Shown here in pieces: positions 4,175-35,090 of a stretch of 37,896 nt of DNA (positions within the stretch are counted from its first letter, which is position 1; each line of letters starts with the position of its first letter). The position numbers and the translations under genes are program-made. The stretch spans positions 1 to 37,896 of the forward strand of contig JANXUO010000485.1 of assembly GCA_025356245.1 (NCBI GenBank), written 5' to 3'. The stretch is from Hymenobacter sp. (GTDB taxonomy: Bacteria > Bacteroidota > Bacteroidia > Cytophagales > Hymenobacteraceae). The notes under the pieces were generated by a model. The model was not told where the DNA came from and did not search any database. It worked only from the letters and a program-made list of their open reading frames with translations.

Positions 4175-4531
4175 CTAGCCGGCCAGCACCCCGCTGAGCC
4201 GCTCCTCATCAGCGGCTACTTGCACGACCACCGTGGCGTTGAGGGCGTGCAGGAGCTTGAACATGGTGCCCACCGAAATGCTGGCTGCATCCTTCTCGAA
4301 TTTTGAGATTTGGGCTTTCTGCACCCCAATGCGTTCACCCAACTGAGTCTGCGTCAGCTTGCCCCGCTTCCGCAGTTCCTTGATACGTTCGGCCAACAAG
4401 TCGGCGTTCAGGGACAACTCGCGCTGGTCGCGGCGGGGAGTGCCCACAGCACCAAAAGCCTCGTCCCGGACATCTTCGTAGTCGGTGTATCCCAAGGGAT
4501 AAGTTTGTACGGTCTTTGTGGAGTTTTTCAT
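4175..4531 (-). CDS. XRE-family antitoxin (HigA-like)
   Basis: The 118-residue product ends in a clear helix-turn-helix of the XRE type: LAERIKELRKRGKLTQTQLG, then the turn and KAQISKFEKDAASISVGTMF, about residues 45-105. It lies directly downstream of the toxin gene in the same direction, the gene order (toxin first) typical of HigBA-type modules. It should bind and neutralise the toxin and repress the shared promoter. I chose the ATG at 4531 because AAGGAAAAA lies just before it; the frame stays open upstream to a TTG at 4627 that would overlap the toxin gene by 17 nt, with another ATG at 4582. The N-terminal half is not recognised. Confidence 0.85.
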   Translation of the reverse strand: MKNSTKTVQTYPLGYTDYEDVRDEAFGAVGTPRRDQRELSLNADLLAERIKELRKRGKLTQTQLGERIGVQKAQISKFEKDAASISVGTMFKLLHALNATVVVQVAADEERLSGVLAG

Positions 4532-4610
4532 TTTTTCCTTTGCAAACGTCTTTGCTTTCCAGGTACTCTTTTTCCCCCGCATCCGGGGTGAGAACTTACG
4601 CTGATGGCCC

Positions 4611-4958
4611 TCAGACGGGAACAGCAAACCAAGCCTTTTTCATTCTTTCAGCCGTTTTTTTGGCTGCCTCAGGTGTCTTGTTCGTCTTTTTTTCTATGCC
4701 ATGCATGCAAACAACGAGGGTGTTATTCTTATCGCGTTTGTCCCAGAACGCGAACAGCCGGTAGAAGTGGTTGTCCACGTCAGCGGAGAATTCATACAAG
4801 TCGTCAGTACCCGGCAATTTCTTAAACCAATTGCCGGTGAAGCCCTCCAGGGTCTTTTTGATGTTGGTATCAAATTTATCCTTTGCCTTGTCGCTTAGCT
4901 TGTTATAAAAAGCTCTTGCCTCTGGTGAAAATAAGGCTTTTACACTATTATTTTTCAT
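4611..4958 (-). CDS. RelE/HigB-like toxin (phage Gp49-like family)
   Basis: The 115-residue basic protein has the core of the HigB/Gp49-like ribonuclease family: FSPEARAFYNKLSDKAKDKF near the start, then WFKKLPGTDDLYEFSADVDN and the YRLFAFWDKRD / LVVCMHGIEKKTNKTP strands, ending in a Lys-rich helix. Such toxins cleave mRNA on the ribosome. The start at 4958 (MKNNSVKALF) gives the normal length; the frame extends upstream to 5045 but without family similarity. It is the first gene of a two-gene unit with the XRE antitoxin downstream. Base composition is lower in GC than in the neighbours, which suggests separate acquisition. Confidence 0.88.
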   Translation of the reverse strand: MKNNSVKALFSPEARAFYNKLSDKAKDKFDTNIKKTLEGFTGNWFKKLPGTDDLYEFSADVDNHFYRLFAFWDKRDKNNTLVVCMHGIEKKTNKTPEAAKKTAERMKKAWFAVPV

Positions 4959-5098
4959 ATACGTTACATTTTGCCTGGTAATCTCTTTTATGTTAATACT
5001 CTCTGGTCGGCGCGGGACTGTTGACTTCTTTAAAAAACAAAGCAACGGCTTTTTTTATACACGACAAAGGCAGCGTAAAGTTTCCGTTTACAGAAACT

Positions 5099-12484: not shown

Positions 12485-13525
12485 TCAGACGGCCTGGGCG
12501 TACCCGGTCGTTTGCTCGGGCCAGGCCGTTGCGGCGGTGGGTGTTGCGGCGGTGATTTCGTAGCTGGGGGGCGTTTCGCCCTTTATCAGGTAGCTGGCCT
12601 TCTGGGCCAGGCTGGCGGCTTTGAATACGAGCGTTTTGTCGTTTTTCAGGGCCGTGAGCCAGCCCTGAATGTAGCTGGCGTGCTGGTCGCCTTCGGTTTC
12701 GGGGGCGTAACCGATTTCGGCGTTCAGAAAAGCGGTGGTCATCTCGGCCGTCAATTCCTCGCGGGCGTAGCTGGCGCTGCCCTTGCCGCCGCTGTTTACC
12801 AGGTCGGGGCGGTTGAGCCGGTGGGCGGCTCCGGTGCTGTGGCCCAACTCGTGAAACAGGGTGCGGTAATAAGCCTGCTCGCTGCGAAAAGTCAGGCGGG
12901 GGGGCATCTGAATGTGGTCGGATTCGGCGGCGTAGTAGGCCCGGTGGCCACCGTGGGCCAGGGTCGGGGCTCCGCTCAAACCCAGGTAGCGGCCGGCAAT
13001 TTCCTCGGCTGCCTCGTTGGGGGTAAAGGTGCGCTCCACCTTCTCGGGCAAGGCGTACTCAATCCCGTCAATCTGGGAGATGTTGAACACGGTAAACGAC
13101 CTCATGAGGTAATAATCGTCGCCTTTCCCGCCCGTGGGCTTCTGCTTGCCTTCGACGGTGCTGTAAAATATCACCGTTTCGCCCTTCTCGCCCTTGCGAA
13201 CGCAGCCCCCCAAATCAAGCGCCTGCTTGAAGGTCAGATAAAGCGGGTATTCGCCCACCGGGGAAAAGCCCAGCAGAAAAGCGTTGATGCCCTGGTAAGC
13301 GCGGCCGGTGGCGTAGTTGCGGGGCATCCCGTAAGCGGTCCAGCCCTTTTTCCACGGAATAATACCGCCTTCCAGGGCCAGGATAATCCGGTCGGTAACT
13401 ACCTGCTGCACGTCGTAGCGGGGCTTTGCTTCGCCCGTGCCGGGGGCTTTGCTCTTGGTGCTTTTTTTGGCGGTCGTGGCCTTGCTGGTCTTGGCGGCGG
13501 CTTTGGGGGCGGTGGCGGTAGTCAT
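12485..13525 (-). CDS. ardC: ArdC-type antirestriction protein
   Basis: The 346-residue protein has the two-part ArdC layout: after a Lys/Ala-rich N-terminal tail, the ssDNA-binding domain spans about residues 36-155 (YDVQQVVTDRIILALEGGII, PWKKGW, NYATGRAYQGINAFLL, DYYLMRSFTVFNISQIDG), and the C-terminal zincin-like part carries HELGHSTGAAHR (225-236), the zinc-binding HExxH, with a Glu-rich helix downstream (REELTAEMTTAFL). ArdC proteins from plasmids protect incoming DNA from host restriction. The ATG at 13525 was chosen; a GTG 27 nt upstream is in frame. It has its own promoter module, a leader hairpin and a terminator, so it is a self-contained unit. Confidence 0.94.
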   Translation of the reverse strand: MTTATAPKAAAKTSKATTAKKSTKSKAPGTGEAKPRYDVQQVVTDRIILALEGGIIPWKKGWTAYGMPRNYATGRAYQGINAFLLGFSPVGEYPLYLTFKQALDLGGCVRKGEKGETVIFYSTVEGKQKPTGGKGDDYYLMRSFTVFNISQIDGIEYALPEKVERTFTPNEAAEEIAGRYLGLSGAPTLAHGGHRAYYAAESDHIQMPPRLTFRSEQAYYRTLFHELGHSTGAAHRLNRPDLVNSGGKGSASYAREELTAEMTTAFLNAEIGYAPETEGDQHASYIQGWLTALKNDKTLVFKAASLAQKASYLIKGETPPSYEITAATPTAATAWPEQTTGYAQAV

Positions 13526-13540
13526 GACGGGAGGAGCTTC

Positions 13541-13565
13541 GCGGCCTGGCACCGTTGCCGGCCGT
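13541..13565 (-). promoter_or_regulatory. 5' leader hairpin of ardC
   Basis: Nearly identical to 12301-12325 (CCTGGCACCGTTGCCGGCCG). It lies between the ardC promoter and the ATG, so it would be part of the transcript leader. Confidence 0.5.
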
Positions 13566-13796: not shown

Positions 13797-13852
13797 ATGC
13801 CTGAATTTTTGTGCGTACATGGACACAACTTCGGCTTATTCACCTAAATTTG
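13797..13852 (+). promoter_or_regulatory. Promoter region of the isoprenoid-synthase/peptide operon
   Basis: Two elements are visible on the plus strand. First, ATGC, 15 nt (ending TTTTTGTGCG) and TACATGGA (13816-13823) follow the plan of the minus-strand modules; the flanks give a dyad TTGTG-N10-CACAA. Second, TAAATTTG (13845-13852) matches the TAnnTTTG box of Bacteroidota promoters and lies 37 nt before the ATG. Either could be the real promoter, with the dyad as an operator. Confidence 0.45.
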
Positions 13853-13889
13853 AGTTCCGCGTAGTCTTTTTAAGCTGCCCTTTTCTGCC

Positions 13890-14837
13890 ATGTGTGCCAT
13901 CAGAGACTTTGTCCGCGCCACCTCCCTTCCCGAAACCCTGAAAGAGGAGCTGGCCGGCGACTTCGTCTTGCAGCAGCATGCCCTCTACGTGCAGCTACCG
14001 GCCTGGCTGGCTCCCGTTTTCGGCGTGGGGCCGGTGCAGGTTGAGCAGCTTTCTTTCAGCTCCTACTTCTACTTCCGCTTTTTACTCGTCGTGGACCACG
14101 TGCTCGACGCGGCTCCAGTCCTTCCCCCTGCCCCACCCCTGCCACCGACTGCGGCTGCTGTGGCCGGCAACCAGCTGGCCACCCAACGGCTGCTCGTTTA
14201 CTGCGACCTCTACGAGCGTGCGGTGCGGGGCCTGTCGGACCTGTTTCCGACCGGCGACCCGTTCTGGGCGCAGCTTGATGCCTGTAAAAAGCAGTACGTG
14301 GCCGGCACCTTGCTTGAAAAGGCCATGAACGTGGGCCCGCGCGACTTCTCACGCGAATCGTTCGAGGCGCTGGCGGCCGGCAAATCGGCCGTCTGCAACG
14401 CCGTCGTTCACGCCCTGGCCTGCCTGGGCGGCACCACGGAGCCGGTGGCTCCGCTGCTCGAATGCCTGCGGCACGTCCACGTGGCTTTGCAGTGCCTGGA
14501 CGATGTAGAGGACTTCCGCACCGACTGGGAACAAGGGCAGTACACCTACGCCCATGCCCAGGTTGAAGCGTACCTCGAAGCCCAGGGCCTCGCCCCCCGC
14601 GTCCTGACCGGTGCCCAGGTGCATCCCTACCTCTATACCAGCGGCACGGCCGATGCGCTCTTCGCCCTCGCGCAGGAACACTTTGGCCGGGCCCTCGCCC
14701 TGGCCGGTCCTTTCCAGCTCACCGGCTTGCGCAACCTGGTATCCCACCACATCGCCCGTTGCGGCTTTTACCGCACGGACATAGAAGCCAAACTCGCCGC
14801 GGCCCGCCACCGCGTGCAGCAGCCCGTCGTCGCCTAA
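13890..14837 (+). CDS. Class I isoprenoid-synthase-fold protein, possible peptide prenyltransferase
   Basis: The 315-residue protein is all-helical and has two Asp-rich motifs at the distances expected for class I isoprenoid enzymes: VVDHVLD (D69-D73) and LQCLDDVEDFRTDWEQGQ (D204, D205, D208, D212). Between them lies GKSAVCNAVVHALACLG (164-180), like the Lys-containing helix of polyprenyl synthases. In this fold the Asp motifs hold Mg2+ and the diphosphate of an allylic substrate. It is the first gene of a plus-strand operon, 10 nt before a membrane protease that is followed by two small peptides, each with one conserved Trp. ComQ of Bacillus has the same fold and prenylates a Trp of its peptide partner ComX, so peptide prenylation is a reasonable inference. 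A plain terpene or polyprenyl synthase is the alternative. Confidence 0.7.
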   Translation: MCAIRDFVRATSLPETLKEELAGDFVLQQHALYVQLPAWLAPVFGVGPVQVEQLSFSSYFYFRFLLVVDHVLDAAPVLPPAPPLPPTAAAVAGNQLATQRLLVYCDLYERAVRGLSDLFPTGDPFWAQLDACKKQYVAGTLLEKAMNVGPRDFSRESFEALAAGKSAVCNAVVHALACLGGTTEPVAPLLECLRHVHVALQCLDDVEDFRTDWEQGQYTYAHAQVEAYLEAQGLAPRVLTGAQVHPYLYTSGTADALFALAQEHFGRALALAGPFQLTGLRNLVSHHIARCGFYRTDIEAKLAAARHRVQQPVVA

Positions 14838-14847
14838 GAAAGATTCC

Positions 14848-16047
14848 ATGCTCACCGACGCGACCCTGCTCCGCCCCTTCGATGCTGCCCGCTGGGTGAT
14901 TGCCGCGCCCGGCGACCGCCACCTGCTGGTCAGCACGGCGGCGGCCGACCTGTTCCGGCTGCTGGCCGGGGCCGACTCGCTGGACGCGGCCCGGACGGCC
15001 TTCAACGCCCGATTCTCCCGCGACCTGAGTCCGTCTGCTTTCGCGGGGCTGGTCGAAGACCGGTTTGGTGGGTACGGGTTGCTCCGCAACGACTCGGTGG
15101 CCCTGCGCCCCCGGTTGCCCGTGCCCGCGCTGCGGCTGCGGGTGGAGTTTATTCCCGCCCCACTGGCCGGCTGGCTCTCGGCTTGGCTGCGGCCCTGCTA
15201 CGCCCCGGGCGTGTTCTGGTGGACTTCGGCCCTGCTTACGGCTCTGCTCGCGGCTGGCTATTTTCTGGCCCCGGCGGCCCAGCTGCCGACCAGTTCCCAG
15301 CTTTGGCTGACGTTGCCGCTGGTGTACGGCTCGGTGTTGCTGCACGAGCTGGGCCACGTGGCCGCCACCGCCCGGGCCGGCGTCCGGCACGGCGGCATCG
15401 GCTTTGGAATGTACGCCTACCTGTTTCCGGTGCTTTACGCCGACGTGACCGGCATCTGGCTGGCCGGCAAGCACGCGCGCGTCATCGCCAACCTGGCCGG
15501 CATCCACGCCCAGTTGCTGTACGCCGGGGTGCTGGCCGGGGGCTACCTGCTCAGCGGCTACGCCCCGTTGCGCTTTGTTGCCGGGGCCGTGGGCATCACT
15601 GCCCTGTGGCAGTTCAACCCCTTCGTGCGCCACGACGGCTACTGGCTCCTGGCCGACCTGACCAACACGCCCAACCTGCTGCCCCGGGCCGAAGTCGTGG
15701 TGCGGCAGGTATGCAGTGTAGCCGGCGTGCGCCAGCTCGTGGCCCGCCGGGGCCGGGCGTTGCGCCCGGGTCCGCAGGCCGCCCTTTTCACCTACGGCCT
15801 GCTCAACGGGGCGCTGCTGTTCTTTTTCATCGGCTACACCTGCTGGCACAACGCCGGCCTGGTGCTCGCCTTTCCTTCGGTTGTTCTGACTTTGCTCGGC
15901 AAGCTGCTCCACGGCACGTTCCAGGCGGCGGACGTGAACCGGTCCCAATTCGTGGTACTCGCGTTATACCTCGTTCTGGTCCGCTTCGTCCTCGACCTGG
16001 GCCTTCGGTGGCGGCGGCCCGGGGCTCCCCCGGTGGGGGCCTCCTAG
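14848..16047 (+). CDS. Membrane M50 metalloprotease with PqqD-like N-terminal domain
   Basis: 399 residues. The first 90 resemble a PqqD-type RiPP recognition element (LLVSTAAADLFRLLAGADSL...LVEDRFGGYGLL). The rest is a polytopic membrane region with VLLHELGHVAATARAG (HExxH zinc site, H166-H170), then NPFVRHDGYWLLADLTNTPN (257-276), the NPF/DGY signature of M50 peptidases found in peptide-modification clusters; the Asp of DGY is the usual third zinc ligand. Further membrane segments lie at about 122-141, 152-165, 222-252 and 312-345. Such enzymes are thought to cleave or help export ribosomal peptides, with the PqqD-like part holding the leader. Ten nt after the isoprenoid gene and 80 nt before the first peptide, it is the likely processing enzyme of this operon. 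Confidence 0.8.
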   Translation: MLTDATLLRPFDAARWVIAAPGDRHLLVSTAAADLFRLLAGADSLDAARTAFNARFSRDLSPSAFAGLVEDRFGGYGLLRNDSVALRPRLPVPALRLRVEFIPAPLAGWLSAWLRPCYAPGVFWWTSALLTALLAAGYFLAPAAQLPTSSQLWLTLPLVYGSVLLHELGHVAATARAGVRHGGIGFGMYAYLFPVLYADVTGIWLAGKHARVIANLAGIHAQLLYAGVLAGGYLLSGYAPLRFVAGAVGITALWQFNPFVRHDGYWLLADLTNTPNLLPRAEVVVRQVCSVAGVRQLVARRGRALRPGPQAALFTYGLLNGALLFFFIGYTCWHNAGLVLAFPSVVLTLLGKLLHGTFQAADVNRSQFVVLALYLVLVRFVLDLGLRWRRPGAPPVGAS

Positions 16048-16127
16048 CAAACGGCACGGGGTCCTTTACCGGGTGGGCCCCCGCCGCCGTCTCCTCCCCC
16101 ACCCGTCCACTTTTTTTACCCTTTTTC

Positions 16128-16280
16128 ATGAATACCCCCGCAACCCCTGCCCCCGCCAGTGCCGAAGCCCTGGCCAGCGACTTCCAGGTCGCCGAACTCG
16201 AACCCCGTTTCGAAAACGTCTGGCTCATGCCCGGCGGGCGCGACGTGGAAAACCCCGCGCCCAGCGTACCCGGCCGATAG
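16128..16280 (+). CDS. Candidate RiPP/pheromone precursor peptide 1, 50 aa
   Basis: A short frame with ATG at 16128, spaced 80 nt after the protease. It aligns with the second peptide over most of its length: AEALA, FQVAELEPR, EN-[VI]-W, then a Gly/Pro part and ENP-x-PSVP. The shared N-terminal half has the form of a leader, and the part from Trp32 onwards (WLMPGGRDVENPAPSVPGR) would be the core. There is no Cys, Ser or Thr cluster as in lanthipeptides. Trp is the natural site if the isoprenoid-synthase-like protein is a ComQ-type transferase. The 50-residue length resembles ComX precursors. Confidence 0.75.
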   Translation: MNTPATPAPASAEALASDFQVAELEPRFENVWLMPGGRDVENPAPSVPGR

Positions 16281-16341
16281 TGTGCCCTGACAGCCGCTGT
16301 CCTTTCATCACTTTCATCGTTTCATTTTTCAACGCATTCCA

Positions 16342-16485
16342 ATGGAATCCATCACCAACAACGCCGGTGCCGAGGCCCTGGCCAATACCTTTCAGGTAGC
16401 CGAACTCGAGCCCCGCCTCGAAAACATCTGGGGCATACCCTACGGCAACGAAAACCCGCATCCTTCGGTGCCGCCCAAAAACTAA
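16342..16485 (+). CDS. Candidate RiPP/pheromone precursor peptide 2, 47 aa
   Basis: ATG at 16342, 61 nt after peptide 1. The leader AEALA...FQVAELEPR is kept exactly, while the codons differ: over the nine codons of FQVAELEPR there are four synonymous and no amino-acid changes, so the frame is under purifying selection. The core starts at Trp30 (WGIPYGNENPHPSVPPKN) and differs from peptide 1 mainly just after the Trp. Two diverged cores behind one conserved leader is typical of a peptide family acted on by the same enzymes. A strong terminator follows at 16564. Confidence 0.75.
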   Translation: MESITNNAGAEALANTFQVAELEPRLENIWGIPYGNENPHPSVPPKN

Positions 16486-16563
16486 ACCGGACCCTTTGGG
16501 TGGCTGATGAGCGAGCATCAGCTGCCTGAAAGCCCACAAAAGAGGCCTTAAAAAGGCCAAAAA

Positions 16564-16594
16564 GAGGCCCCGGCAGCACTGCCGGGGCCTCTTT
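16564..16594. terminator. Intrinsic terminator between convergent transcripts
   Basis: Perfect 13-bp stem GAGGCCCCGGCAG / CTGCCGGGGCCTC with TTTC after it on the plus strand and an A-run before it, so it can serve both the peptide operon (plus) and the TPR gene (minus). A smaller GGCCTTAAAAAGGCC hairpin precedes it at 16544-16558. Confidence 0.9.
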
Positions 16595-16631: not shown

Positions 16632-17987
16632 TTAACGGGTGCCCAGGACCAGCTTTGATGGACTCACTGCACTGCGGCCACTGTTGACGGGCGCAGTGGC
16701 CGGGTGCTGGCGCAGGTAGGTGCGGGCATCCCGGTAGAGGGGCGACTTCCGGCTGGCCAGGGCCAGCACTTGCTCGAAGTAGCGACGGGCATCGACCACG
16801 TTGCGTTGCGTGCCGGCAATGCGCCCCAAATTGGCCAGCGCAAACAGGTAGTAACCGCCCTTGGCCTGGTTCACGGACTCGGAGAAGACCAGGCAGCGCC
16901 GGTAGTAATCCTGGGCCCGGCCCGGGTCGTGGTGGCGTTCCTCCATCAGGTAGCCCAGATAGTAGGTGGCTGCGCGGCCGCTGGTGCCCTCGTAGCCGGG
17001 CATCCCCTGGTTGAGCTTGGTGAGAATCTCGCGGCTGGTACGTTCGCACTCCGCCCACTCTCCCTCGGTAAAAGTGTGGTTGGCGTAGGAGCGCGCAAAG
17101 CAGGCATTATCGGGAAACTCCCGGGTCAGGGTCCGCGAAGTCTGCATGGCTTCAGCGACCCGTTTTTCCTGGTCACTGGCCAGAATCCGCATCTGAAAGA
17201 AGCGGGCCTCGGTGCCGGTGTAAAAGCCCTCGCGGGCCGCCGTGCCCAGCTGGGCCAGGCCCAGTGCCCGGTTGCCCTTGGGGAAGAAGAGCAGCACCGG
17301 GCGCAGCCACGGGTACTCGCCGGCAACCCAGTCGGCGTAATAATTGAACAGCGCTTCCCCAAAAGCAAATTCCGGGCTCAGGCCGTTGGCCTGCCGGCTC
17401 TTTTGCAGGTAAGTGAGGGCGCGTTTGCTGCTCACCGTGGCCTGGCGCCAGTCGCGGCGCTCGGCGTGCAGGCGGGCATCGAAGCCGTAGGCGGCCGAGA
17501 GGAAAAAGCTGGCTTCGTAGTTTTGATTATCGCCATCGTAGAGGCGCTGGGCCTTGACAATGGCCGTGTCGAAGTAAGCAAAAAACCGCTTGTCGTACTC
17601 GGTGGCGTACGTGTTGGAAGGCATGATTTTCCACCACGTGCTCAGGCCCAGCAGAAAGTAGGGCATGGGGTGGTCGGGGTAGCGGCGACGCAGCGAACGA
17701 AACTGCCGGTCGGCCTTGTCGAACTTGAAGTCGTAGAGGTTGTGGACTGCCCCGCCCAGCTCCAGTTGAATGTCCTTGTCCAGCAACAGCCACCCCTTGG
17801 TGTCCACCGTGCTCGGCAACACGTCCACCGTGGTCAGCTCGATGTTCGGCAGGGCCCGCACCGTATCGGGCTCCGTCTCAAATCCGGGCACCTGGGCCCG
17901 CACGGGGCCTCCGGCGAACAACAACGCGCAGCCAGCCAGGCGCAGGGTCGGGCACACGGCGCGACGCAGGCGAGTAAAAGCATTCAT
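16632..17987 (-). CDS. Secreted tetratricopeptide-repeat protein, 451 aa
   Basis: The start at 17987 gives an N-terminal signal peptide (MNAFTRLRRAVCPTLRLAGC, hydrophobic core ALLFAGG, cleavage near VRAQ). The mature protein is built of helix pairs of TPR type; examples are YDFKFDKADRQFRSLRRRYP (about 93-112), GYLMEERHHDPGRAQDYYRR and ARRYFEQVLALASRKSPLYR near the end. TPR proteins act as binding scaffolds; this one should sit in the periplasm. It converges on the peptide operon across a shared terminator. Composition is that of the core genome. No enzyme motif is seen, and a link to the peptide system is not shown. Confidence 0.75.
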   Translation of the reverse strand: MNAFTRLRRAVCPTLRLAGCALLFAGGPVRAQVPGFETEPDTVRALPNIELTTVDVLPSTVDTKGWLLLDKDIQLELGGAVHNLYDFKFDKADRQFRSLRRRYPDHPMPYFLLGLSTWWKIMPSNTYATEYDKRFFAYFDTAIVKAQRLYDGDNQNYEASFFLSAAYGFDARLHAERRDWRQATVSSKRALTYLQKSRQANGLSPEFAFGEALFNYYADWVAGEYPWLRPVLLFFPKGNRALGLAQLGTAAREGFYTGTEARFFQMRILASDQEKRVAEAMQTSRTLTREFPDNACFARSYANHTFTEGEWAECERTSREILTKLNQGMPGYEGTSGRAATYYLGYLMEERHHDPGRAQDYYRRCLVFSESVNQAKGGYYLFALANLGRIAGTQRNVVDARRYFEQVLALASRKSPLYRDARTYLRQHPATAPVNSGRSAVSPSKLVLGTR

Positions 17988-18167
17988 ATGAAACGGGCTG
18001 AAAAAAAGTGATGTGTTTTCTAGGGGCAAGCTGGAACAGAAAACCTCTTTTGTTCTAACAAGTTGAAAAAAGGTAATTTGGCCCCATGTACGGGCAGGCA
18101 GTGGGGTAAGGAAAAGGGTGCCGTGTTCGTATCGGCGCACGAAGGTACACCCAAACCGATTCCGGCC

Positions 18168-30982: not shown

Positions 30983-32326
30983 ATGGAAATTCTTATTATG
31001 ACCGGCCAGCTTGTGCTGGGCCTTTCGTTGCTCATTGGCCTGCACGAACTTGGTCACTTTGCTTTTGCACGGCTCTTTGGTATCCGCGTCGACAAGTTTT
31101 ACATTTTCTTCGATTTCCTGTTCCCCGTCAGCAAAGGGCGCACGTTTGCGCTGTTCAAAAAGAAGATTGGCGGCACCGAGTACGGCATTGGCTGGCTGCC
31201 GCTCGGCGGCTACGTCAAGATTCACGGCATGGTCGATGAAACCCAGAACGGAGAAAACCTGCACGGTCCGCCCGCACCCGACGAATTTCGTGGCAAGCCG
31301 GCGTGGCAGCGCCTGTTGGTGATGGCCGGCGGCATTGGGGTGAACGTAGTCACGGGCATCGTGATTTTTGCCGCCCTGGCCTACTCGTATGGCGTCGAGT
31401 ACCTGCCGGCCGATGCCGTGCCCGGTGGCGTGGTAACCAGCGCCCTGGGCCGCCAGGTAGGCCTGCGCGACGGCGACCACGTGGTTGGCTTCAACGGCCG
31501 CCCGCTCGTGGAATTTGACCAGCTCTACGACCCGGAAATGCTCGCGCTGCCGGGCACCTACCTCACCGTGGTTCGTCAGGGGCAGCGCGTGGACCTGCCG
31601 CCGTTTCCGGCCACGTTTTTCGGCCAGCTCGCCGCGGCCGGCGATTCGGCCTACGTGGGTCCGCGCAAGCCTTTTTTCATTGGCCAGGTCAACCCCGGCG
31701 ACTCGGCCGCTGCGGGAGGGCTCCAGGTCGGGGACCGTATCCGGGCCGTGGGTGCGGTGCCCATCGAATACTTTGACAAAATGGCCCGCGAGCTGCTCGT
31801 TCACCGGGGTCAGCGCGTGCGCCTGACCGTCGAGCGGGCCGGCCAGCCCGTGAGCTTGCTGGTGGGCGTGAAGCCGGACGGCAAAATCGGGTTGCGCGGC
31901 ATCTTTGAGCTGCCCACCAAGACCCATCGCTACTCGCTTAGCGAAGCGCTGCCCCAGGGCGCGGACCAGGCCGCGGCCGTGGTGCGCCTCCAGGTGCTGG
32001 GCATCACCAAGATGTTGCGGCGCGAAGTGTCAGCCTCGGCCAGCATGGCCGGCCCCGTCGAAATTGCCCAGCAGTTCGGCGGCGTCTGGGACTGGCACCA
32101 CTTCTGGGGCCTGGTGGCCCAACTCAGCATGGTGCTCGCTTTTATGAATCTGCTGCCCATCCCGGCACTCGACGGCGGGCACATCGTCTTTCTGCTCTAC
32201 GAGGTAGCCAGCGGCCGCAAGCCCGCCCTGCGGGTGCTCCAGGGGGCCCAGCGCGTCGGGGCGTTGCTGCTGCTGAGCCTGATGATGTACGTGCTCGTGG
32301 TGAAGCAGCTTGTCAAGCTCTTATAA
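30983..32326 (+). CDS. rseP: RseP-type site-2 protease (M50)
   Basis: 447 residues. HELGHFAFARLFGIRVDKFY has the HExxH zinc site (H21-H25) in the first membrane helix; LGGYVKIHGM and NLLPIPALDGGH (389-400) are the other M50B signatures, the latter bringing the Asp ligand. One or two PDZ-like regions lie between (about 140-330; GQVNPGDSAAAGGLQVGDRI is a typical PDZ edge). The enzyme cuts membrane-bound anti-sigma factors and leftover signal peptides. rseP is normally a single chromosomal gene; here it stands alone, opposite in direction to its neighbours, in a replicon with plasmid features. No anti-sigma or ECF sigma gene is next to it. Confidence 0.94.
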   Translation: MEILIMTGQLVLGLSLLIGLHELGHFAFARLFGIRVDKFYIFFDFLFPVSKGRTFALFKKKIGGTEYGIGWLPLGGYVKIHGMVDETQNGENLHGPPAPDEFRGKPAWQRLLVMAGGIGVNVVTGIVIFAALAYSYGVEYLPADAVPGGVVTSALGRQVGLRDGDHVVGFNGRPLVEFDQLYDPEMLALPGTYLTVVRQGQRVDLPPFPATFFGQLAAAGDSAYVGPRKPFFIGQVNPGDSAAAGGLQVGDRIRAVGAVPIEYFDKMARELLVHRGQRVRLTVERAGQPVSLLVGVKPDGKIGLRGIFELPTKTHRYSLSEALPQGADQAAAVVRLQVLGITKMLRREVSASASMAGPVEIAQQFGGVWDWHHFWGLVAQLSMVLAFMNLLPIPALDGGHIVFLLYEVASGRKPALRVLQGAQRVGALLLLSLMMYVLVVKQLVKLL

Positions 32327-33950: not shown

Positions 33951-35090
33951 TTAGGCGTAGGTGTTGAGCATCACCGGCATCACCAGCATAAGCACGTTCT
34001 CTGCCTCTTCATTTAGCTTAGGACTCAGCAGGCCCGCCCGGTTGGGGGTGCTCAGGGCCAGCGAAATTTCTTCGCAATCCAGATTACTTAGCATTTCAAG
34101 CAAAAACCGGGCGTTGTAACCGATTTCAAGGGCTTCTCCGTTGTATTGGCAGGGGAGCGTTTCGCTGGCCTCGTTGGCAAAATCGAGGTCTTCGGCCGAT
34201 ATTACGACCTGCTGTCCGTCGAGGCGCAGGCGCACCTGGTGGGTCGTTTTGTTGGCGTAAACGCTGATGCGACGCACCGAAGCCAGTAGTTCCTGGCGGT
34301 TCATGACCAGCACATTGGGGTTGGCCACCGGAATCACGTTCTCGTAGTCCGGGTAACGCTCGTCAATCAGGCGGCAGACCAGGCGCGTGTTGTTGAAAGC
34401 GAAAAAAGCGTGGCCCTGGCCCAACTCCACCGTTACCGGTACGGAATCCTTGTCGTTGGGCAGGCCCTTTTGCAGTTGCACGCAGGCCTTGCGGGGCAGG
34501 ATGAACTTGCGCTCCTCGCCGCCCGCCGGGCGCTGCACGTCCAGGCGGCCATAACGCAGCAGACGGTGGCCATCGGTGGCCACGAACGTAGTCCGGTCGG
34601 CTTTGAGTTCGACCAGAACGCCCGTCATGGCGGGCCGCAGCTCGTCGGTGCTGGCGGCAAATATGGTCTTGTTGATGGCCCGGAACAACGACGAACTGGG
34701 CAGCTCCAGCGGCTGGGTGTGCGGGGCCTGGGGTACGCGGGGGAAGCCAGCGCCGTTTTCGCCCGCGAGCTTGTAGCGGCCGTTTCCCGACTCGATGACC
34801 ACGGCGAAGCTCGCGGGCTCCACGGTAAAGGTCACGGGCTGGTCGGGCAGGTTTTTGAGCGTGTCGAGCAGAATGCGGGCGGGCACGGCAATCTCCCCCG
34901 TTTCGTTGCCCTCAATGGGCAGCGTGGCCACGATGCTGGTTTCAAAATCGGACGCGGTGACGGTGAGTTGGCCGGGGGCGAGCTGAAACAGAAAGTTCTC
35001 CAGAATCTGCACGACCGGGTGGGTGGGAATGATGCCGCCAAGGCCGGTGAGCAGTTTGAGCAGGGCGGAAGACGATACGACGAATTTCAT
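33951..35090 (-). CDS. dnaN: DNA polymerase III beta subunit (sliding clamp)
   Basis: The 379-residue product is a full-length beta clamp: MKFVVSSSALLKLLTGLGGI at the start, TVTASDFETSIVATLPIEGN (about 43-62), ATDGHRLLRYGRLDV in the middle domain, LVCRLIDERYPDYENVIPVA before the third domain, and the C-terminal strand LVMPVMLNTYA. The family end motif is usually MPVRL or MPMRL. As a ring of two subunits it holds polymerase III on DNA. dnaN is normally chromosomal; a copy on a Rep_3 replicon could support plasmid replication or replace the host clamp under stress. The stop-proximal region has the palindrome at 33838-33873. Confidence 0.95.
   Translation of the reverse strand: MKFVVSSSALLKLLTGLGGIIPTHPVVQILENFLFQLAPGQLTVTASDFETSIVATLPIEGNETGEIAVPARILLDTLKNLPDQPVTFTVEPASFAVVIESGNGRYKLAGENGAGFPRVPQAPHTQPLELPSSSLFRAINKTIFAASTDELRPAMTGVLVELKADRTTFVATDGHRLLRYGRLDVQRPAGGEERKFILPRKACVQLQKGLPNDKDSVPVTVELGQGHAFFAFNNTRLVCRLIDERYPDYENVIPVANPNVLVMNRQELLASVRRISVYANKTTHQVRLRLDGQQVVISAEDLDFANEASETLPCQYNGEALEIGYNARFLLEMLSNLDCEEISLALSTPNRAGLLSPKLNEEAENVLMLVMPVMLNTYA

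Follow-up and report, generated by a model that had tools for sequence, protein, structure and literature searches.

A plasmid-borne Hymenobacter operon encoding a putative cyclase-less peptide prenyltransferase, an M50 protease and two precursor peptides

The window analysed here, a stretch of 37,896 nucleotides that makes up an entire contig (C412) of a Hymenobacter draft genome of ~82% completeness, carries four consecutive plus-strand genes at positions 13890-16485 amid minus-strand neighbours. Re-examination of the open reading frames (ORFs) and their translations confirmed this arrangement, which an earlier note on the same DNA had described together with a plasmid origin; the latter is borne out by a Rep_3 initiator encoded on the contig and by homologous operons on two complete plasmids. 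In the annotation of both plasmids, P, the M50 gene and those peptide genes that are annotated appear as hypothetical proteins. The genes of the operon, the first two of which are separated by 10 nt, are as follows.

P, 13890..14837, plus strand, 315 residues: a stand-alone protein resembling trans-isoprenyl diphosphate synthases (trans-IDS), the proposed peptide tryptophan prenyltransferase
M50, 14848..16047, plus strand, 399 residues: a site-2-type intramembrane metalloprotease with an N-terminal domain (~1-83) resembling PqqD and the RiPP recognition element (RRE), the proposed leader peptidase and a possible exporter
Precursor peptide 1, 16128..16280, plus strand, 50 residues: leader FQVAELEPRFE, single Trp 3 residues past R-x-E
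Precursor peptide 2, 16342..16485, plus strand, 47 residues: leader FQVAELEPRLE, single Trp 3 residues past R-x-E

We propose that these genes form a minimal operon for a ribosomally synthesised and post-translationally modified peptide (RiPP), in which P transfers an isoprenyl group to a tryptophan of the peptide core. On the basis of the predicted fold of P, its missing isopentenyl diphosphate (IPP)-binding signatures, the pairing of P with M50 and the near-invariant Trp of the precursors, we put the probability of this reaction at about 0.8.

Distribution of the operon and its precursor peptides

Counting the window's own genome, P was found in 15 of 204 Hymenobacteraceae genomes (one of them, G003, a weak match at locus L032 with no M50 nearby), in 4 of 395 genomes of the class and in 17 of 395 genomes of the phylum, of which nine besides the window reach E 1e-40 or better and the rest are weaker. 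When 84,980 species genomes were scanned with one pattern, which is liable to miss more distant members, 26 loci emerged, from Hymenobacter, Spirosoma, Pedobacter, Mucilaginibacter, Belliella, Emticicia, Chryseobacterium, Leeuwenhoekiella, Parachryseolinea, several metagenome-assembled genomes and Idiomarina. The Idiomarina locus (L046), which belongs to the gammaproteobacterium Idiomarina xiamenensis and sits on a long tree branch, suggests transfer between phyla. The M50 gene comes next after P in all 26 named loci, at gaps of -55 to +27 nt in 25 cases and 153 nt in one; its frame is broken at L027, and none was found at L117, a weak P match.

The two window peptides both carry FQVAELEPR(F/L)EN(V/I)W and diverge beyond it. 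Searching for small ORFs with simple length rules and a leader motif, typically F-x-V-x-E-L-x-x-R-x-E, gave 57 hits in 359,488 strand-bases adjoining P against 8 in 1,239,220 elsewhere, a ~25-fold enrichment that is partly circular, the motif having been derived from the same loci; it is therefore the contrast with elsewhere, and not the match itself, that we take as evidence. At least one leader-bearing small ORF was present at 35 of the 44 P loci (L021 and L045 being one place counted twice), and peptides accompany 37 of the 44 once a variant leader at L020 and a distant pair in genome G110 are added. Synthase and peptides thus co-occur at most loci, which is the check that the earlier note had proposed, and inspection of the neighbours by eye and by regular expression, rather than by a terpene family search, revealed no homologues that lack peptides and lie beside terpene or carotenoid genes. 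At three Hymenobacter loci on large contigs (L029-L031), three to five near-identical tandem precursors lie upstream of a P protein fused to a second domain; radical SAM and ABC-type motifs occur close by.

Predicted folds of P, its protease and the fused relatives

Window P has no Pfam or NCBIfam match at E 1, and a profile of 24 P members finds polyprenyl synthetases as its best matches in the PDB (E 8e-6). Its AlphaFold model (pLDDT 92.2) has the isoprenoid synthase fold and matches polyprenyl synthases at Z ~22, the figures for 4jyx being Z 22.6 and 3.1 A over 271 residues. For the tryptophan prenyltransferase Ord1 (9v4i) they are Z 20.8 and 3.5 A over 261 residues; such modelled likeness by itself cannot decide between the two activities. 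Both Asp motifs are in place, DHVLD at 69-73 and DDVED at 204-208, the second intact within DDVEDFRTD. All 24 aligned P domains keep D69, D73, K165, D204, D205, D208 and D212 unchanged, and K165 aligns with a Lys in both of the ordinary PF00348 prenyl synthases that the host genome encodes. Shortened, solitary P-like copies without M50 were also seen (L033, 7468-8187; L023, 17399-17902; L034, 9983-10270), on two Hymenobacter replicons that also bear the full system.

In the M50 protein, HExxH (H166, E167, H170) and the third-ligand residue D263 are conserved without exception among the 23 members aligned. Its model (pLDDT 86.9) shows three strands and three helices in residues 1-83. Foldseek on the whole model returned nothing significant (best E 0.72); a second structural aligner, run against the same chains, gave matches that are moderate and made on a predicted model, with residues 1-83 resembling the lasso-peptide leader-binding protein TbiB1 (Z 8.0 over 80 residues) and PqqD (5sxy, Z 5.9), and residues 96-332 resembling a Methanocaldococcus site-2 protease (3b4r, Z 8.1). 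The synthase fold with its two motifs, the M50 membrane protease and the PqqD-like N-terminus, all of which the earlier note had read from the sequence, thus agree with the models and alignments. By sequence, one of the 23 M50 members matches Pfam PqqD (E 0.0011), and all 23 match both the daptide family NF041824 and the epipeptide LiaK/YydH family NF058609 at E 1 or better. In four Hymenobacter genomes, distant M50 relatives (L118-L121) also occur without P, next to genes that look by eye like ATP-grasp, so the family may serve other RiPP-like loci too; a fifth, weak M50-only place (L122) has a different gene context.

Among the 40 P proteins compared, 24 are fused, with a C-terminal stretch of 255-354 residues that is absent from window P. 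The SQHop_cyclase_C family was matched above its cut-off in all four such stretches tested, and D-x-D, at what we take to be the class II terpene-cyclase acid site, is kept in 22 of 23 aligned C-terminal (C) domains, followed by S in 17 and by D in 5. The exception, L039, is the fused sequence nearest the window pair by tree path. In the tree, the window enzyme and that of Hymenobacter sp. YC55 form a sister pair (support 100/99) nested in a Hymenobacter set (100/98) in which seven enzymes stand alone and three are fused, and the grouping of the pair with L039 reaches 94/78 only. At least four changes between the fused and stand-alone states are forced by the starred branches; loss of the cyclase would be a simpler reading than gain, on a tree that itself sets no polarity. 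Radical SAM motifs, for which, as for the kinase and transporter motifs discussed below, regular expressions alone were used, occur at 13 of the 44 loci, every one with a fused P.

Proposed reaction and competing explanations

Of the 43 precursors listed, 39 have tryptophan past the leader and none has it within. About 12 would be expected to have Trp there at an assumed residue frequency of 1.3%, a comparison among related rows and not a test of independence. The window's two peptides, of 47 and 50 residues with a shared leader and one Trp each, are as first described, and the invariance of that Trp does not extend across the relatives. One could suppose that P acts on some other part of the peptide or through a different reaction, for instance by prenylating Tyr, Cys or a backbone atom, while Trp serves in binding. 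The first Trp lies anywhere from 2 to 38 residues past R-x-E, which favours this idea, as do the Trp-less peptides of L051 (two), L053 and L055 and a dropped near-copy from L054, all of which conserve R-K-E-F-T-F-Y, the F-T-F-Y following the leader. Outside that branch, however, Trp is the sole core residue common to nearly all precursors, and according to a 2026 review every characterised trans-IDS-like peptide prenyltransferase targets Trp (PMC13290415); we regard modification elsewhere as improbable. The branch in question (L051, L053-L055, L058-L060) has P proteins of 270-276 residues and peptides that share R-K-E-F-T-F-Y, four of its loci being without Trp and three having Trp solely at the extreme C-terminus.

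Chain-elongating synthases bind IPP through an RR after DDxxD and an N-terminal GKxxR. None of the 24 P domains has RR within 20 residues past the first Asp motif, against both host synthases; a GKxxR-like string occurs in one of the 24 (L059, away from the canonical site) and again in both host synthases. With these signatures gone from P, we argue that the acceptor is not IPP and that elongation of prenyl chains, judged from sequence, is unlikely; identity of P as a chain-elongating IDS or a terpene synthase was rejected on this ground. Were P a plain prenyl diphosphate or terpene synthase that supplied precursor to a peptide cluster it happens to sit beside, this would fit the fold, both Asp motifs and the polyprenyl synthetase matches in the PDB, but the absent RR, the two synthases that the host already has and the RiPP-type M50 next to P at all 26 named loci make such a role very improbable. 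Equally hard to credit is a catalytically dead P acting as a leader-binding scaffold while M50 alone matures an unmodified peptide, an idea for which a His in the first motif and the shortened solitary copies on two replicons might be cited, but against which stand the invariant catalytic Asp residues and K165 and a dN/dS relative to the closest relative of roughly 0.22 for P, whose synonymous sites are near saturation (M50, roughly 0.33). Together with the enrichment of leader-bearing ORFs, both ratios speak against a chance arrangement.

Several observations weigh against the proposed transfer to tryptophan, beginning with the partial circularity of the leader search and the Trp-less peptides, four of 43, because of which Trp is not universal. 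In window P, that His takes the place of the first motif's second Asp. The Gln three residues ahead of the second Asp motif (Q201 in the window), which the literature links to Trp recognition, occurs in 20 of 24 P domains, but both host synthases carry it too and so it is not diagnostic; we dropped it as proof, and it is missing from this position at L050, L052, L056 and L057, the branch most similar to the fused enzyme ChrPC by architecture. In the closest relative, YC55 (G110), two ELEPRLENVW peptides lie 30 kb from P-M50, and across the 44 loci the leader-motif search found no peptide at L032, L042, L056, L110, L112, L115 and L116, the L042 and L056 sequences stopping soon past M50. One gene separates P and M50 at L110, L112 and L115 in the phylum set, and no M50 was found at L108, where P and a peptide are present. 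The window M50 scores far below the cut-offs of both NF041824 (80.9 bits, cut-off 300) and NF058609 (43.8 bits, cut-off 225), a regular-expression search found no ABC-transporter motif on the window contig, and some epipeptide is reported still to be made when the M50 gene epeP is deleted (PMC10885120).

From the gene content, predicted folds, conserved catalytic residues, pairing and precursors described above, we infer the following reaction, donor and order of steps. The ribosome would make the two short precursors, and P would hold a Mg-bound allylic diphosphate from the host (geranyl, farnesyl or geranylgeranyl diphosphate) between its two Asp motifs and move the isoprenyl chain onto the indole of the core Trp. 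The RRE-like domain of M50 would then grip the common leader, and the protease would cut the modified core loose at the membrane, possibly releasing it outward. That M50 binds and cleaves the leader after prenylation seems to us reasonably likely; the product is perhaps exported by M50 or by other proteins. In the fused relatives the cyclase-like domain would cyclise the attached chain, and since the window enzyme has no such domain, a linear prenyl group is predicted. As for biological role, antagonism is possible. A signal of the ComX type is unsupported by gene context, given that regular expressions found a histidine-kinase H-box nowhere on the window contig and at one of the 44 loci (L057).

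A broader and more tentative picture is that Bacteroidota plasmids carry a mobile branch of prenylated RiPPs that would have lost the cyclase half of a ChrPC-like enzyme more than once and would keep an RRE-fused site-2 protease as near-constant partner to read the leader and release the lipidated peptide, alongside a Leeuwenhoekiella/Chryseobacterium branch (270-276 residues, F-T-F-Y cores) with a non-Trp acceptor. If true, the latter would be the first trans-IDS-like peptide prenyltransferases with an acceptor residue other than Trp.

Plasmid setting and relation to known systems

Besides the Rep_3 initiator, the window contig encodes a single-stranded DNA-binding protein and a beta clamp. 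The genes flanking the operon and three further observations on the contig are listed below.

12485-13552, minus strand: ArdC, flanking the operon on the side opposite the TPR protein
16632-18140, minus strand: tetratricopeptide repeat (TPR) protein with an apparent signal peptide (read by eye), of uncertain accessory role
4175-5045, minus strand: a Gp49-like protein followed by a helix-turn-helix protein, which we presume to resemble a HigB/HigA toxin-antitoxin arrangement
30983-32326, plus strand: a second M50 protease, RseP-like with PDZ domains, away from the operon
33951-35090, minus strand: a complete gene for the DNA polymerase III beta clamp

The TPR protein is possibly an accessory or self-protection copy. 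Its case as a component of the system is weakened because the family is near-ubiquitous, in 202 of 204 Hymenobacteraceae genomes, and a copy is present at only 8 of 14 Hymenobacteraceae P-M50 loci examined, in varied orientation.

Among known enzymes, canonical trans-IDS (PF00348) differ from window P, which has neither the RR nor the GKxxR and no Pfam match. Ord1, the farnesyltransferase of free tryptophan (PDB 9v4g-9v4j), shares the fold and a Gln three residues before Asp (Q216/D219 according to the PDB entry titles, Q201/D204 in the window); its substrate is the free amino acid and not a peptide, and the shared Gln is not diagnostic. A peptide prenyltransferase of another fold can be leader-dependent (PMC12715784). 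The M50 proteases of daptide (NF041824) and epipeptide (NF058609) loci are likewise site-2-type proteases in RiPP loci, but the window protein falls far under their cut-offs and is partnered by an IDS-fold protein. For epipeptides, EpeP, an M50 protease, is reported to be sufficient to yield the product and presumably both cleaves and exports it (PMC10885120).

The window operon resembles ComQ/ComX, to which the earlier note had likened it as a possibility, in its IDS-fold enzyme, short peptide and internal Trp. ComX works with the ComP kinase, whereas a regular-expression search found no kinase H-box on the window contig. ComQ lacks the second Asp motif and has an unknown protease (PMC10853753), whereas window P keeps that motif intact. 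We therefore rejected ComQ/ComX as the family; what survives of the earlier proposal is that P passes an isoprenyl group to the peptide Trp and that M50 deals with the leader, both supported by inference. PalQ/PalX of Paenibacillus likewise combines a stand-alone IDS-fold enzyme with a peptide Trp acceptor. There, PalX carries a leader of the NHLP type, PalQ requires Trp at the terminus and the three-gene cluster includes a histidine kinase (PMC10853753). The window operon differs in its short leader, internal Trp and RRE-M50 protease.

ChrPC, which is said to originate from Hubrich et al. 2024, is a fused prenyltransferase-cyclase. The 2026 review describes how its P domain puts C10-C20 donors on a peptide Trp and its C domain cyclises the chain, and lists ComQ, PalQ and this P domain as the three known enzymes of trans-IDS type that prenylate Trp in peptides (PMC13290415). 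The window system shares with ChrPC a trans-IDS-like P domain and peptide substrates with proposed modification on Trp. The fused homologues found here have P with a class II terpene-cyclase-like domain, and we take L050 (Chryseobacterium) and L109 to be of the ChrPC type by architecture and name. Window P has the isoprenoid synthase fold, both Asp motifs, the non-diagnostic upstream Gln and a nearby Trp precursor. It differs in having no cyclase, in being plasmid-borne on a contig without a radical SAM motif, in its RRE-M50 partner and in the position of Trp, 3 residues past the leader as against near the C-terminus in fused Chryseobacterium-type relatives. The earlier note knew of no description of this gene combination; the idea is partly in print through the fused enzyme (PMC13290415), and the novelty may lie in the differing variant of cyclase-less P with RRE-M50. 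A literature search of limited coverage found no paper joining Hymenobacter, RiPP and prenyl. To the three enzymes that the review names (PMC13290415), the window system and its relatives add several dozen pairs of enzyme and precursor, some with a cyclase and some without, which have a compact leader in common and a near-constant RRE-protease partner. Prenylation by P alone, the division of leader recognition between enzyme and protease, and the change of acceptor in the Trp-less branch thereby become testable. Compared through the review's description of ChrPC, the window system is a stripped-down, cyclase-less relative of ChrPC-type enzymes.

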